IMG/VR virus record: IMGVR_UViG_3300039098_000167
Coordinates: 1-34,119 of that record
Source: a virus
Direction: 5' to 3' (one strand)
DNA length: 34,119 bases
Below the pieces are notes generated by a model, which was not told where the DNA came from, ran no database searches, and saw only the letters and a program-made list of their open reading frames with translations. Numbering within the stretch: the stretch's first letter is position 1; each line of letters begins with the position of its first letter. Of this stretch, positions 482-34,101 are shown piece after piece. The position numbers were made by a program, and so were the translations under genes.

Positions 482-804
482 GCGGCCTCAACCAGCTCGA
501 TCTCGATATGTTCGACACCCCGGCTAACCGCCGGCCGGAGCCGTCACCCGCTCCGGCCGCCCAGGACTTCGTTGTCAAGATCGCCCACACCAAGGCCGGC
601 TATCCGATCCTCGTCTGCACCGCCGATCCACTGCCCGCCGAAGTCATCGCCCAGGGCCAGCGGGACAATATTCCCGCCTTTTCCGGTCGCGAGATCCAGC
701 TCCTGCGCGATTGCGATGCCGACCTGGTGCGACACATCCTCGCCGTCAAGCGCGAATTCCCCGGCGCCAGCGTTCAGGAAGTCATCAACGAGGGCCGCCT
801 ATGA
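478..804 (+). CDS. Small conserved-looking phage protein of unknown function
   Basis: 108 aa, not recognised. The N-terminal 30 residues are Pro/Ala rich and probably disordered. The rest looks compact, with a mixed strand/helix segment (residues 31-60) and a C-terminal amphipathic helix (SGREIQLLRDCDADLVRHIL). Its start overlaps the stop of the zinc-ribbon gene by 4 nt, and its stop overlaps the start of the primase gene by 4 nt. It is therefore translationally coupled on both sides and is probably an accessory factor for replication; that role is inferred from position only. Confidence 0.7.
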   Translation: MSGLNQLDLDMFDTPANRRPEPSPAPAAQDFVVKIAHTKAGYPILVCTADPLPAEVIAQGQRDNIPAFSGREIQLLRDCDADLVRHILAVKREFPGASVQEVINEGRL

Positions 805-3143
805 GCTTCGCTCTCGATAATCTCAGCGCCGACGAGCGCCTCGCCATCGCCAAAGACTGCTTTCAGGTCACCGAACAGCGCGGCCACGAACTTCACGGCC
901 TCTGCCCCTTCCACGCCGAGAAGCAACCCTCCTTTTCCTACAACGTCGAGAAGGATCTCTGCAACTGCTTCAGCTGCGGCGAAAGCGGCGACCTGGTCAC
1001 CCTGTGGGGACAGGCCCGCGGCTACGGCGACAACAAGGACGCATTTCTCGCCTTTCGCGAGCAGCACGCCCCGCCGGACACACCTGGTAAGCCAGCGAGC
1101 AAGTCCAGGAGCGGCGGCGCCCGCTCCGCAACCCGGGGGGACGGGGGAGCCGCCGAAGTTACCAAGATCATCCCCGAGGCCGACTATGAAAAACTCGCGC
1201 CACTTCCCGAAGGTTGGCGCCAGCGCTGCCGCGACCAGTTCACCTGGACCGAGGCCGCTATCGAGGGCGCCGGCCTGCGGCTGTGGAAATCAGTCAACGG
1301 CGACGAACGCATCGCCATCCCCATCCGGCGAGACGACGGCGCTCTGGTCAACATTCGTCTCTACAAGCCCGGTGCCGTAGACAACAAAGTCACCAGCTGG
1401 GGCAAAGGATTCGGCAAAAGCAAACTCACTCCCGCGCCCAGCACCTGGTCCAAAAGCCCCATCCTCATCACCGAAGGGGAAAAAGACCGCATCACCGCCT
1501 TATCGCATGGCTTCAACGCCTGCACCCAGACCGCCGGTGCCAATTCCTGGGACGACAAATTCACCCGCTTTTTCAGCGGCCGCGATGCCATCATTGCCTA
1601 CGACGCCGACGAAAAAGGTGCCGAAGGCGCGCAAAAGGTCGCCAAAAAACTGCTCGAAGTCGCCAAAACAGTGCGCATCCTCACCTGGCCCGACTACATG
1701 GGCATGGGCGAAAGCCACGGCCAGGATCTCACTGACTTTTTCGCCGTCCACCACAAAACCGCCCAGGACCTCAAAGACCTCATCGCCACCAGCAAGCCAC
1801 TCAAAAAAGCCGACAACCAGCGCCTCGAGGCCATCCCCGAAGACATCCAGCGCTTCTTCGGCGGCAGCCGCGGCACCCAGTTCAAACCCCGCCTGGTGTC
1901 CGACGAAATCCTAAGCTGGCGCCGCCTCATTCACGATCCCCGCACCGGGCAGATCCACACCTGGAACGATCGCCACTGGGAAGATTACGACCCCTCTAAC
2001 ATCAGGAGGCAAATCTTGACACTACTCGACATCGAAGGCAGCACCCCACGCTGCAACGACGTGCTCGGCATCGTCCGCGATCTCGCCGTCATGCCCCACG
2101 GCCGGCAGCTCAACGACCAGGCCGACATGATCCCGCTAGAAAACGGCATGTTCTGCCTCGAATCCGCCCAGGTGCAGCCTCACGATCCAGGCCACCTCAA
2201 CAGCTACGTGCTCGATATTACCCTGCAGCTCGGCGGCAAGTTGCCCGACTGCCCAACCTGGCGGCAGTTCCTCGGCCAGTCCGTCGGCGATCCCGACACC
2301 ATCCGCGAGCTGCAAAAGTTCTTCGGTTATTGCTTCACCCGCGAAACCCGCTACGAAAAAGCCCTGCTGCTCATCGGCCCCGGCGGCGACGGCAAAGGCA
2401 CCATCCTCAAGGTGCTGCAAAGCCTGCTCGGCGACATCAACGTCTCCAACGTCTCCATGAGCGGCCTGCAGGATCAGTTTCACCGCGTCATGCTCGTCGA
2501 CAAGCTGCTCAACGTCGCCACCGAGATCGAGGCCGGCCTGCTGCAGTCCGATATATTCAAAACCATCGTCTCCGGCGAGGCCGTCACCGCCGCCTACAAA
2601 CACAAAAACGCCTTTTCCTTTGCCCCGGTCTGCAAGCTCGCCTTCTCCGCCAACAAACACCCGAAGCTGCAAGACACCAGCGAGGGCCTCTACCGCCGGC
2701 TGCTGCTCATCGAGATGGAAAAGCAATTCGTCAAAGCCGGCCAGGCTGACATCTACCTGCTCGACAAGCTCATGGCCGAGCGCGACGGCATCTTCCTCTG
2801 GGGCCTGCGCGGTCTCCAGTTGCTCCGCGAAGAAGGCTTCAAGCCCTCCGATCACATGGCCGGCTGCCTCGACCGTTTTCAAGAGCTCAACAATCCCGTG
2901 CTCGCCTTCGTGCGCACCCATATCGACGAAGATCCCGACCGGAGGGTCTGCATCATGAAGGTTTATGCCAAATATAAAAAATTCTGCGAAAAACGCGGCT
3001 ACAAACCCCTCGGCGAATCCAGCTTCGGCGTCGAGCTGCGCAAAGTCTGCCCTTCCGTCAAAAGAAGGCGCGAATCCACCGGCAAGCGGCGATGGGGCTA
3101 CCAGGGCATCAACCTGGTCGACGACTACGATGGACTCGTATAA
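801..3143 (+). CDS. Phage primase-helicase (CHC2 zinc finger, Toprim, SF3/D5 helicase)
   Basis: 780 aa, replicative primase fused to a helicase. The CHC2-type zinc finger uses C35, H38, C56 and C59 (CPFH ... CFSCGESGD). A Toprim-like segment (ILITEGEKDRITAL, then IIAYDADEKGAEGA) lies at roughly residues 220-300. A D5/SF3 helicase follows, with Walker A GPGGDGKGT near residue 525, a downstream TEIE acidic motif and the family's SANKHPK segment. The last ~60 residues look like a winged-helix DNA-binding domain. The ATG at 801 is preferred over a longer in-frame extension because it overlaps the preceding stop. It would synthesise primers and unwind DNA at the phage origin, and the symmetric repeat array begins 4 nt after its stop codon. 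An in-frame ATG at 2955 has GGAGGG 8 nt upstream and could yield the C-terminal domain alone. Confidence 0.93.
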   Translation: MSFALDNLSADERLAIAKDCFQVTEQRGHELHGLCPFHAEKQPSFSYNVEKDLCNCFSCGESGDLVTLWGQARGYGDNKDAFLAFREQHAPPDTPGKPASKSRSGGARSATRGDGGAAEVTKIIPEADYEKLAPLPEGWRQRCRDQFTWTEAAIEGAGLRLWKSVNGDERIAIPIRRDDGALVNIRLYKPGAVDNKVTSWGKGFGKSKLTPAPSTWSKSPILITEGEKDRITALSHGFNACTQTAGANSWDDKFTRFFSGRDAIIAYDADEKGAEGAQKVAKKLLEVAKTVRILTWPDYMGMGESHGQDLTDFFAVHHKTAQDLKDLIATSKPLKKADNQRLEAIPEDIQRFFGGSRGTQFKPRLVSDEILSWRRLIHDPRTGQIHTWNDRHWEDYDPSNIRRQILTLLDIEGSTPRCNDVLGIVRDLAVMPHGRQLNDQADMIPLENGMFCLESAQVQPHDPGHLNSYVLDITLQLGGKLPDCPTWRQFLGQSVGDPDTIRELQKFFGYCFTRETRYEKALLLIGPGGDGKGTILKVLQSLLGDINVSNVSMSGLQDQFHRVMLVDKLLNVATEIEAGLLQSDIFKTIVSGEAVTAAYKHKNAFSFAPVCKLAFSANKHPKLQDTSEGLYRRLLLIEMEKQFVKAGQADIYLLDKLMAERDGIFLWGLRGLQLLREEGFKPSDHMAGCLDRFQELNNPVLAFVRTHIDEDPDRRVCIMKVYAKYKKFCEKRGYKPLGESSFGVELRKVCPSVKRRRESTGKRRWGYQGINLVDDYDGLV

Positions 3144-3146
3144 CCG

Positions 3147-3408
3147 AATCCGTCCTAGACGTCCTAGACAGCCAAATTTACTAGGACGGAAAAAGCGCAA
3201 CAAAAACAAACACATGTCCTATCGTCCTACCCGTCCTAGTAAAAAGCACACGCGCATACACGCGTAGGATCAAAAAAACACAAAGTCTTATTTCTTAAAG
3301 AGAAGGTCAAAATAACTAGGACAAGTAGGACGATAGGACATGTAGTTGAAAGTATTAAAGAAAATCCGTCCTACTAGAAAAAATCGACTAGGACGTCTAG
3401 GACGGATT
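3147..3408. repeat. Symmetric iteron array with nested inverted repeats; candidate replication origin
   Basis: Non-coding AT-rich interval containing twelve copies of the hexamer GTCCTA or its complement TAGGAC, starting at 3152, 3161, 3182, 3216, 3224, 3233, 3317, 3326, 3334, 3368, 3389 and 3398. Local spacing is 8-9 bp where clustered. The copies form three inverted-repeat pairs sharing one centre between 3277 and 3278. The outer pair, 3147-3167 with 3388-3408, is perfect over 21 bp. The pair 3179-3190 with 3365-3376 has one mismatch. The inner pair, 3212-3240 with 3315-3343, matches 27 of 29 bp. The DNA between these blocks is not symmetric. Iteron-like repeats next to a primase-helicase are typical of initiator-bound origins; origin function here is inferred. 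Confidence 0.8.
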
Positions 3409-26363: not shown

Positions 26364-26798
26364 CTACTTTTTTTCAGCAGATTCCGCTGGGATCAATGAC
26401 TGGGGAAGGAATAGTCCGCTGACTCCCATCTGGCCGAGCATGTCGATCAGATGCTGTCGCACGCTCGGATAAAGCTGGTTGGCATAAATTTCAGTAATGG
26501 GCTCGTAATCTTTCGCTGAAAGCTTGTCGTCGGCCAAAAGGTAGTTTGCAATGAACTTGCAATTGATCTTTATGTCCTCGTTGTCGGGCTCTTCTCCATC
26601 GGCCTTCCCCACCAGGTTGGTATTGGTGCGTATAGCAAAGCCAGGTGGGCCTCCATCAGGATAAGCTGCGAAGTTTACCTCATGCTTTAGCTCAAACTGA
26701 TATTTTGCGGCCTGTTCATTGTGATCGCAGAACTCGCAATCAGTGGACAACAACCTGATTCTGGTCAGCTTTGGGATTGTCGCGACGGATAAATCCAT
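26364..26798 (-). CDS. SecB-like chaperone of a toxin-antitoxin-chaperone system
   Basis: 144 aa, close to the size of SecB. It has an antiparallel-strand pattern (TRIRLLSTDCEFCDHNEQAA, YQFELKHEVNFAAYPDGG, FAIRTNTNLVGKADGEE, IKINCKFIANYLLADD) followed by a C-terminal helix (LYPSVRQHLIDMLGQMGV). This is the SecB fold order. It overlaps the 3' end of the HicB gene by 59 nt and is third in a toxin-antitoxin-chaperone order. In known TAC systems such chaperones fold and protect an antitoxin that carries a chaperone-addiction extension. A start nearer the HicB stop (TTG around 26755) cannot be excluded. Confidence 0.78.
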   Translation of the reverse strand: MDLSVATIPKLTRIRLLSTDCEFCDHNEQAAKYQFELKHEVNFAAYPDGGPPGFAIRTNTNLVGKADGEEPDNEDIKINCKFIANYLLADDKLSAKDYEPITEIYANQLYPSVRQHLIDMLGQMGVSGLFLPQSLIPAESAEKK

Positions 26799-27225
26799 GG
26801 GTTTTCAACTCTCCTACTAGAGACTGCGTATCGACGGGGAATGTCCCTCTGTACTCAAAGATGTGACGGTGCTCCACCACATCTTTGTCGGTTTTTTCTA
26901 CGCGGGTCTTGATTGCCTGCCTGGTGAGCTCATTTAGTGTAATGTCTTCCAAATGGGCCACCTTGGCAGCCTGTTGGTGGAGTTCAGGCCCAACTCGCAC
27001 ATTGAAAGTTCCGCTAAAGGGTTTGTCTGGACTCGCCCCAAGCTCTTCGCAGGTTTCGAGATAGTCGTCGACGGCAGCTGCAAACTCCGCTTCGAGCTGT
27101 TCGTATGTTTCGGCTTCATAGGTAACAAGGTCGTTCACGAATAGGATTTTGCCAAAGAGACATTTGTCTTCCTGGCTAAACTCCATTGATCCGGAATATC
27201 CCTTATATTTGAACACTTTTTTCAT
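26740..27225 (-). CDS. hicB: HicB antitoxin with C-terminal chaperone-addiction-like extension
   Basis: 161 aa. Residues 1-70 form the HicB partial RNase H-like domain (LFGKILFVNDLVTYEAETYE, then AAAVDDYLETCEELG). Residues ~73-112 are a ribbon-helix-helix DNA-binding domain (GTFNVRVGPELHQQAAKVAH, then LNELTRQAIKT). About 45 further residues (HIFEYRGTFPVDTQSLVGEL, GFIRRDNPKA) are not part of an ordinary HicB. With a SecB-like gene next door, this tail is the expected chaperone-addiction segment. HicB neutralises HicA and probably represses its own operon. It overlaps both neighbours. Confidence 0.85.
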   Translation of the reverse strand: MKKVFKYKGYSGSMEFSQEDKCLFGKILFVNDLVTYEAETYEQLEAEFAAAVDDYLETCEELGASPDKPFSGTFNVRVGPELHQQAAKVAHLEDITLNELTRQAIKTRVEKTDKDVVEHRHIFEYRGTFPVDTQSLVGELKTHGFIRRDNPKADQNQVVVH

Positions 27226-32312: not shown

Positions 32313-32494
32313 GCCGGGGTCGCCAGTACAGCCGTTCGCTGATTCATGGGATGGACGATGCCGAGGCGCAGATCCGGGCCGATCTGAGCAGTGGGGTGCG
32401 GACGTTGACGCGGGAGGAGATCGCTGAGCTTGAGGTCTCGCTGACGCCGCCGAAGGAACAGGCGGGCGATTATCGGGAGAGGGCTTATGTCTGA
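32309..32494 (+). CDS. Small early protein of unknown function
   Basis: 61 aa. Basic N-terminus (MSRGRQYSRSLIHGMDDAEA) followed by helices (QIRADLSSGVRTLTREEIAE). Its start overlaps the preceding stop and its stop overlaps the following start. Could be DNA-binding from charge alone; no family recognised. Confidence 0.55.
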   Translation: MSRGRQYSRSLIHGMDDAEAQIRADLSSGVRTLTREEIAELEVSLTPPKEQAGDYRERAYV

Positions 32495-33266
32495 CATCAG
32501 CATGCGGGGTGCGTTGCCGGAGAAGGAAAAGGATCTCCATTGTCCGCTGATGGGCGCGGGGCCGAAGCCGAACTATTGGAAGGCGTCGTGCCAGGAGCGG
32601 TTGCGGGAGAATAACTGCCGGCTGAAGACCTGCCCGGAGCGGAAGGCTTTAAAGCCGAAGAAGGAGGCGAAGGTGGCGCAGAAAAAGATTAAGCGGACCT
32701 GTTCGGTGGAGGGCTGCGACGAGCCGCACCTGGCGAAGGGGTTGTGCAAGAAGCATTACTGGAAAAAGAAGACGGCTGAGCGGGGGAAGCAGGAGAAGAA
32801 GGTTGACCAATGCCTTGAGTGTAAAGAGGTGAAGCCGTTCATTGGCCGGGGGCTGTGCCGCGCTTGTTACGGTCGCTTTAAACGGGCTGGGACGTTGGAC
32901 GACAACTATCCGGTGTTGCGGGGCAAGGAGGCGGCCCGAGCGGTGATGGCGACGCAGGGGAAGAAGCAGGAGCCTGTTGAGGTGCCGGCTGAGTCGGTAG
33001 TCGAAGAGACGCCGGTTGCGCTCGAGGTGAATCCCGAGGCGGCCCCTGAGCCCCAGGAGGAACAACTGGCTGACCCCGCACCCCCGATCGATCCGGCTGA
33101 TGGTCGGGTGGTCTTGACCTTTGGCGAGCGGGATCAGGACTTGTTGTCCGGTCTTCTTGAGTGGGCTGAGGATGAACGCCGCACCCTTGAGCAACAGATC
33201 CTGGCGGTACTGGACCATGCCAACGCCCTGGCGGTGGACGGTCGACTGCCGAGGGCGGCGTCATGA
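32487..33266 (+). CDS. Multi-cysteine, zinc-finger-like protein with acidic tail
   Basis: 259 aa. Three Cys/His clusters are visible: HCPLMGAG with CQERLRENNCRLKTC (residues ~18-50); CSVEGCDEPHLAKGLCKKHY (~72-91); and CLECKEVKPFIGRGLCRACY (~108-127). The last two resemble HNH-nuclease-associated or zinc-knuckle motifs but carry no nuclease residues that can be seen. Residues ~150-205 are Pro/Glu-rich and disordered. A C-terminal helix follows (LLSGLLEWAEDERRTLEQQI). Probably nucleic-acid binding. Overlaps the gene before it and the gene after it. Confidence 0.62.
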   Translation: MSDISMRGALPEKEKDLHCPLMGAGPKPNYWKASCQERLRENNCRLKTCPERKALKPKKEAKVAQKKIKRTCSVEGCDEPHLAKGLCKKHYWKKKTAERGKQEKKVDQCLECKEVKPFIGRGLCRACYGRFKRAGTLDDNYPVLRGKEAARAVMATQGKKQEPVEVPAESVVEETPVALEVNPEAAPEPQEEQLADPAPPIDPADGRVVLTFGERDQDLLSGLLEWAEDERRTLEQQILAVLDHANALAVDGRLPRAAS

Positions 33267-33502
33267 GGTCGGGGATCGTGGTGGAGTGCAAGACTTGTCG
33301 CCAAGCGGGGCGGTGCAGCGATAGGGCGGCCATGCAGCGTGAGAGTTTGTTTGCGTGGGGTCGTCGTGAGCCCGCCCCGTCATGCAGCGATTATGATCCG
33401 CGCTATCACCACGGCATCGAGGGTGTCTTCGCTGACCCCTCCCCGCACCCCTCCCGTCGCTGGAGCGTTGCCAGTATCAATCATGGAGATCGCGCATGTT
33501 AA
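33263..33502 (+). CDS. Small cysteine-containing protein of unknown function
   Basis: 79 aa. Cys at positions 9, 12, 18 and 41 (VECKTCRQAGRCSDRA), aromatic and Pro-rich afterwards (YDPRYHHGIEGVFADPSPHP). Overlaps the preceding stop by 4 nt and the next start by 7 nt, so it is probably part of the operon. Function unknown. Confidence 0.5.
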   Translation: MRSGIVVECKTCRQAGRCSDRAAMQRESLFAWGRREPAPSCSDYDPRYHHGIEGVFADPSPHPSRRWSVASINHGDRAC

Positions 33503-34101
33503 CGGTAAAGCTGGAGGGCATCGAAGAGGCCCGGCGGATGTTCGACCCGAAGGTCGTTAACCGGGCGGCCTACCAGGCGATTAACGAGACGGTGCGGGGT
33601 GTGCGCACCGCGACCGGCAAGGAGATCCGCAAAGAGTGGAATGTCAAGGCCGGGGACCTGAACAAGAAGTTGAGGGCTGTCAAGATGGCAAGGTACGGCG
33701 ACCTGGAGGGGATCGTTGCGGCGCAGAGCGGATCTTTCAGCCTGAGCTACTTCGGTGCCAAGTCCTACAAGGGTAACACAGTGCAGACCCGCACCTCTGG
33801 CAGGAGGATGAAGCGGGCCTCGGGCAAGGGCGGGGTTTACGTCAAGATCAAACGCAGTGGCGGGGTGACGCACATGCCCAATGCTTTCATGGCGGCGGTC
33901 AGGGCCGGCAAGGGCAGCGCCAGCCACATCGGGATATTCCACAGGGTGGGCAAGGGCCGGCTCAAGATCATCGAGCGCCGGGTCATCACCGTGGCCAGCA
34001 TGTTTGGCAAGCCAGCAGTGCAGGCCGCAGCCACGAAGACCATCAACAACACCTTCTCCCGCCGTTTCAACCATCACATCGATCGACTCATGCAGAAATG
34101 A
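33496..34101 (+). CDS. Minor tail protein Z-like (GpZ) in an early-gene position
   Basis: 201 aa. The pattern is that of lambda GpZ-type proteins: AAYQAINETVRGVRTATGKE, IRKEWNVKAGDLNKKLRAVK, then SLSYFGAKSYKGNTVQ, GGVYVKIKRSGGVTHMPNAF and GIFHRVGKGR. GpZ normally sits between FII and U in the tail module and helps finish the tail end that meets the head. Here it closes the early operon, far from its usual neighbours at 13072-13783. GGAGAT precedes the ATG. If the window is circular, the zinc-ribbon gene at 47 follows 64 nt later. Confidence 0.75.
   Translation: MLTVKLEGIEEARRMFDPKVVNRAAYQAINETVRGVRTATGKEIRKEWNVKAGDLNKKLRAVKMARYGDLEGIVAAQSGSFSLSYFGAKSYKGNTVQTRTSGRRMKRASGKGGVYVKIKRSGGVTHMPNAFMAAVRAGKGSASHIGIFHRVGKGRLKIIERRVITVASMFGKPAVQAAATKTINNTFSRRFNHHIDRLMQK

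Follow-up and report, generated by a model that had tools for sequence, protein, structure and literature searches.

A mirror-symmetric iteron array behind a primase-helicase gene, a probable replication origin of the PICI/SaPI type in a temperate phage

Background

In the origins of SV40 and the papillomaviruses, inverted sites position two hexamers of an SF3 helicase, and AT-rich DNA lies adjacent. Origins of the lambda type also have AT-rich DNA, together with repeated sites that are bound by the phage-coded O protein; in lambda itself these sites are direct repeats inside the O gene, and the host DnaB helicase is loaded by P. For the phage satellites of the PICI/SaPI group, SaPI Rep, which has been likened to the SF3 helicases of SV40 and the papillomaviruses, reads the origin directly downstream of its own gene through its C-terminal domain, and Cch2, which is related to SaPI Rep, forms both hexamers and dodecamers (PMC7581432). 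The pri-rep-ori segment of one such element, EcCICFT073 of E. coli, has been shown experimentally to replicate a plasmid (PMC6092414).

The locus considered here lies in a 34,119-nucleotide stretch of viral DNA (IMG/VR virus record IMGVR_UViG_3300039098_000167; the whole stretch is called the window), in which an array of iterons, folded symmetrically around one centre, follows directly on a primase-helicase gene. This array is very probably the theta-type replication origin of the phage and the DNA target of the adjacent upstream primase-helicase, and it is most likely an origin of the PICI/SaPI type that is carried here by a complete temperate phage. Origins of this kind are already known from satellites; what is new is their presence in complete phages, a frozen geometry within which the site word changes in concert, a correspondence between one residue of the helicase and bases of the site, and a conserved asymmetric tract.

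The primase-helicase and the array behind it

The primase-helicase gene (801..3143, plus strand), whose product is the putative initiator, is assigned to DNA primase by PHROGs, and Pfam recognizes in it a CHC2 zinc finger, a TOPRIM domain, an SF3-type helicase (D5_N/DUF5906), and a C-terminal winged helix (Pox_D5/RFX-like). Among PDB structures, the SaPI5 primase-helicase 7ola is its best relative (E=5.7e-25), and RFX5 matches the C-terminal part (E=2.5e-6). The AlphaFold model of the window protein reaches a pLDDT of ~80-90 in the C-terminal domain only; because it is poor elsewhere (mean pLDDT 48), this model was not used for a fold search. The model of a relative, L099 (mean pLDDT 88), is placed by Foldseek with the SaPI-Rep group (7ola, 7om0, and 7pds).

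The dyad array (3147..3408) lies between the stop codon of this gene (3143) and the start of the next (~3423). It consists of twelve TAGGAC/GTCCTA hexamers, each part of an iteron of 9-10 bp, with six copies per half-array in a fixed order and spacing. When GTCCTA is taken as forward, the left half-array (3152..3238) has iterons starting at 3152 (+), 3161 (+), 3182 (-), 3216 (+), 3224 (+), and 3233 (+), and the right half-array (3317..3403) has them in mirror order at 3317 (-), 3326 (-), 3334 (-), 3368 (+), 3389 (-), and 3398 (-). The order is therefore two forward, one reverse, and three forward (++-+++) followed by its mirror image (---+--), with spacings of 9, 21, 34, 8, 9, 84, 9, 8, 34, 21, and 9. 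The first hexamer is 9 bp 3' of the helicase stop codon, a placement that is similar in most relatives. The window as a whole contains 19 matches to the hexamer, against 6.8 expected from dinucleotide shuffles, and 12 of the 19 are concentrated in 252 bp.

The initial annotation had held that the twelve hexamers share a centre at 3277.5 and that the paired blocks are conserved while the DNA between them has diverged, and both statements stand. All six pairs are exactly mirrored about this point, with opposite orientations (the first base of each hexamer and the last base of its partner sum to 6555), and the inverted blocks were verified, with 21 of 21 matches in the outermost (3147-3167 with 3388-3408), 11 of 12 in the second, and a long inner block. 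None of 20,000 permutations of the array's own spacings and orientations gave six exact pairs (the best, five pairs, arose four times). When the array is folded on itself, the hexamer columns match at 36 of 36 positions, versus 18 of 63 in the columns that lie over 4 bp away from any hexamer, which is about the chance level. A degenerate seventh pair (TAGGAT at 3264-3269 with GTCTTA at 3286-3291) is visible and may be due to chance.

The array is followed by a short gene without an assigned function, a gene with a weak match to the terminase small subunit, and genes for the large terminase, a lambda-family portal, the head maturation protease, the major head protein, a minor tail protein, the tape measure, and then a serine integrase. 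The presence of terminase, portal, protease, capsid, tape measure, and integrase argues that the carrier is a temperate phage rather than a satellite. (A HicB-like antitoxin gene, at 26743-27225 on the minus strand, adjoins the serine integrase. At the right end of the window, genes for a tail-completion protein [phrog_27, 33496-34101] and an HNH endonuclease [32487-33266] lie apart from the other virion genes; the sequence could come from a prophage that is rearranged or circularly permuted in this record.)

As in the PICI/SaPI systems, the array lies immediately 3' of the initiator gene, two sets of iterons flank a central region that contains AT-rich DNA, the initiator is homologous to the Rep helicase, and the mirror order is like that of EcCICFT073. 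The layout is not unique to the window phage; in the EcCICFT073 origin region of CFT073, 10 of 11 sites with the word GGTAGA are mirror-paired, in the same order as in the window. The differences are in the carriers, which are satellites without complete morphogenesis genes in the PICI/SaPI case but here a complete temperate phage with a full head/tail set and an integrase, and in the primase half of the protein, which in the window is of the DnaG type (CHC2/TOPRIM), unlike that of PICI/SaPI. The P4 system resembles the window in that ori1 has six type I iterons whose order (---+--) is that of one half-array, and in that crr closely follows the 3' end of the alpha gene. However, the P4 origin is split between ori1 and crr, and crr consists of two 120-bp direct repeats, whereas the window has a single mirror dyad, with neither a separate ori1 and crr nor direct 120-bp repeats. 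The SV40 and papillomavirus initiators differ in that they bind the origin through an N-terminal domain and at far fewer sites, and their origins have no sequence relationship to that of the window; unlike lambda O, the window initiator is itself a helicase.

The array in relatives

Relatives were gathered from viral contigs by array pattern and by helicase alignments, which yielded ~70 further loci. For the window's own primase only one close relative was found, L003, with 68% identity across the portion that the two proteins share; it carries this array at the corresponding position, close to symmetric and with a centre that is 11 bp longer. A scan that assumed no word, but asked for mirror-paired sites of any single 6-mer in a 465-bp region that extends from around the helicase stop codon into the DNA beyond it, found at least six such sites in 51 of 74 helicase loci and twelve in seven of them. 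Among shuffled sequences, 2 of 1,480 reach six paired sites and none goes higher, and the maximum in the upstream control is four. Of 80 loci from bacterial genomes, 44 reach at least six, and most of these come from Alphaproteobacteria; the hosts include Methylobacterium, Bradyrhizobium, Ancylobacter, Roseibium, Xanthobacter, and Magnetospirillum. Three loci that were scored as having no array (L284, L286, and L287) nevertheless carry degenerate arrays with an alternating tract, so the detector undercounts.

The position of the array in related phages, which the initial annotation had proposed to compare, is maintained: the order of two forward, one reverse, three forward, and their mirror image recurs after the helicase gene in ~84 distinct relatives, in the same place and with the same spacings, although in L044 and L083 the array lies farther downstream of the helicase. 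(The comparisons below use a set of 84 arrays with distinct C-terminal domains.) Relatives that have the primase without the repeats, which the initial annotation had counted against its reading, do exist, but these are only distant ones, with ~23-36% identity to the queries and with several lytic phages among them, and the near relative L003 keeps the array. No such array was found after the helicase, in the stretches searched, of the distant-helicase phages Epa5, Ab18, VP5, PaMx11, and RDJL.

A mirror array is present in the cultured Marinobacter phage PS3, 28 bp after the primase gene, and another lies 20 bp after the DUF5906 gene of a 9.7 kb Roseomonas plasmid; the annotated portion of this plasmid that was examined shows no other evident replication gene. 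That the array occurs in complete temperate phages, mostly of Alphaproteobacteria, and that a small plasmid carries a shorter version of it, points to a general origin type of self-loading helicases that extends beyond satellites.

Since the array is intergenic and closely precedes the following gene, and since plasmid iterons often also control rep expression, it might be asked whether the sites form an operator for transcriptional autoregulation, by the primase-helicase or by another regulator, and not an origin. This is highly unlikely. In almost every relative the array lies downstream of the helicase gene, not upstream; an operator would not need as many as twelve sites arranged in a rigid dyad around an asymmetric core; and EcCICFT073 uses the same layout as a working origin.

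Several other sets of repeats were encountered. Matches to the GTCCTA-word pattern in L010, L011, L016, and L024 were discarded as coding repeats with spacings that are multiples of three. Phages with a RepA-like helicase protein (L004, L015, L019, L029, and L030) were set aside; their GTCCTA arrays, which begin within the last codons of the helicase gene (6028-6250 in L004) and lie partly inside it, have a different order (---++++--+++) and would represent another design of array based on a similar word. In prophages of the Pseudomonas type that have a different primase-helicase (L194-L273), a degenerate, mirror-like TGTCC/GTCCTA array with a 14-nt alternating run lies further downstream, ~380-650 bp after the helicase gene.

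The site word and the helicase C-terminus

Between lineages the site word switches in all copies together (GTCCTA, GTCCAA, GGTCCA, and GCCCCA are examples), and the order and spacings persist. The words found among relatives include TGTCCAACCT, TGCCCCACCT, TGTCCGACCT, GGTCCAAGC, GTCATAGGT, GTCTAGGCA, and more.

When columns of the helicase alignment were compared with iteron positions (1,359 tests), one association stood apart. Where the second residue of the recognition helix is a threonine, the iteron 3' half is ACCT, a rule that fits 77 of the 78 loci in the discovery set: ACCT is present in all 34 threonine loci and, in full, in 1 of the 44 others. The phi value for this link is 0.97, compared with 0.64 for the next best of the 1,359 tests and 0.51 for the best column of the helicase core. 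The residue has changed at least 16 times on a tree built from the helicase core only, and in the supported independent pairs the site changes with the residue in 8 of 8 (p 0.008). Among held-out genomes, a small set (n=10) examined for a column that had been picked after the fact, 8 of 10 new arrays fit the rule, the exceptions being L313 and L307. More generally, iteron similarity is related to similarity of the C-terminal domain when the core is controlled for (0.31, Mantel p 0.001), but not to similarity of the core when the C-terminal domain is controlled for (-0.04). A second candidate contact, between P and the 5' G, was rejected; it held in 67 of 74 loci in the raw count, but independent pairs gave 5.0 in the same direction and 0.5 in the opposite one (p 0.22).

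In the L099 model the covarying residue comes second in the recognition helix. The recognition helix of the window protein, ESSFGVELRKV (~3015-3047, plus strand), has a serine at the corresponding position (codon 3018-3020; S372 of the modelled fragment), which is likewise second in its helix in the AlphaFold model. As expected from this serine, the window sites lack ACCT. The covariation thus gives good support to the prediction that the C-terminal winged helix of the helicase (2952..3116, plus strand, placed from the AlphaFold model) is the iteron reader. Because this domain is coded next to the array, a single recombination block could carry both. The rigid geometry, the drifting word, and the nearly one-to-one match of residue to base make initiator specificity, the loading of two helicases, and incompatibility testable by swaps.

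The covariation also bears on a possible role of the array in packaging, as a cos/pac start recognized by the small terminase. The gene with the weak PHROGs match to the terminase small subunit lies ~0.7 kb downstream of the array in the window, the array is likewise upstream of such a gene in L003, and in lambda cos is located upstream of the terminase small-subunit gene. A packaging site is nonetheless extremely unlikely, given that the site word covaries with the C-terminus of the helicase and not with its core, that similar arrays are present on small plasmids, and that the genes downstream vary (tail genes including the tape measure in L012/L020, minor-tail-Z in L032).

The asymmetric centre

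Although the half-arrays mirror each other, the DNA between them does not, a feature that the initial annotation overlooked. On the gene side, just inside the half-array, is a tract of alternating purines and pyrimidines, GCACACGCGCATACACGCGTA (3246..3266), which is predicted to be prone to form Z-DNA; opposite it is AT-rich DNA (3267..3316), a candidate melting region by its composition. Among the relatives, an alternating run of at least 12 nt is present between the half-arrays in 68 of 84 loci but in none of the 168 arms; random 82-bp stretches reach this length in 2% of cases, and the runs average 15.1 in the centres, versus 6.7 after shuffling. These runs are mostly CG and CA/TG, the composition that Z-DNA favours, and usually lie no more than ~25 bp from the gene-side half-array. 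In 75 of 84 arrays the AT-richest 20-mer of the centre is found in its distal half, but the centre as a whole is not AT-rich across the relatives (0.43), AT-richness being confined to the distal part.

The self-complementarity of the central tract is no better than that of shuffles that preserve the alternation (mean z -0.03). This argues that the alternation itself is what is kept, and hairpin formation by the tract was rejected on the same grounds. Cruciform extrusion, which the initial annotation had entertained, or telomere resolution at a tos-like site, which inverted blocks around one common centre bring to mind from the tos site of N15, has next to no probability, as the middle 78 bp of the window array is not palindromic, the centre in relatives is consistently asymmetric with the alternating tract on one side and AT-rich DNA on the other, and no protelomerase gene was recognised among the window ORFs searched.

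The tract is absent from the centres of both EcCICFT073 and P4, and the literature searched contains no description of a Z-prone tract as an origin element; to that extent the conserved tract is an undescribed element of origins. One could speculate that negative supercoiling would flip the tract to the Z-form, such that it senses or focuses torsion. On this basis it is conceivable, though rather doubtful as a whole, that the tract is a working Z-DNA element that gives a symmetric double-hexamer origin its direction or licensing, and that the C-terminal domain and the array together are an exchangeable specificity cassette with a readable code from residue to base.

After the alternating tract, the window has a short GTAGG/TAGGA-like stretch at 3262-3271 (GCGTAGGATC), and similar stretches are seen in L034, L035, and L286. 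This stretch may be one more conserved feature of the centre.

A model for initiation

Taken together, these comparisons leave the array, its conservation, and its tie to the helicase well supported. The functional satellite origin of the same layout, along with the plasmids, suggests that the array would act as an origin in the window phage as well. The initial annotation had proposed an origin-type array bound by the primase-helicase, with a mirror symmetry that would accommodate two initiator complexes facing each other; the relatives, the plasmid, the satellite origin, and the covariation of helicase and site all speak for this proposal, which is probably right. The GC-skew check that was suggested at the same time gave no such sign, as the skew in the window does not switch at the array.

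In the proposed mechanism, the C-terminal winged helices of the helicase would read the iterons of each half-array, and one hexamer would assemble per half-array, with six sites for six subunits. The mirror layout would place the two helicases opposite one another, with the central 78 bp between them. The centre would then melt on its AT-rich distal side, with each ring loading onto one of the strands; the fused TOPRIM primase would make primers, and the host polymerase would carry out synthesis. The stoichiometry of one hexamer per arm, the site of melting, and bidirectional firing are all steps that we infer. One hexamer per half-array is the simplest model because relatives of the helicase are hexamers, but the rule of six sites per hexamer is not strict, since the number of exactly matching sites per array ranges from 7 to 14 among the relatives.
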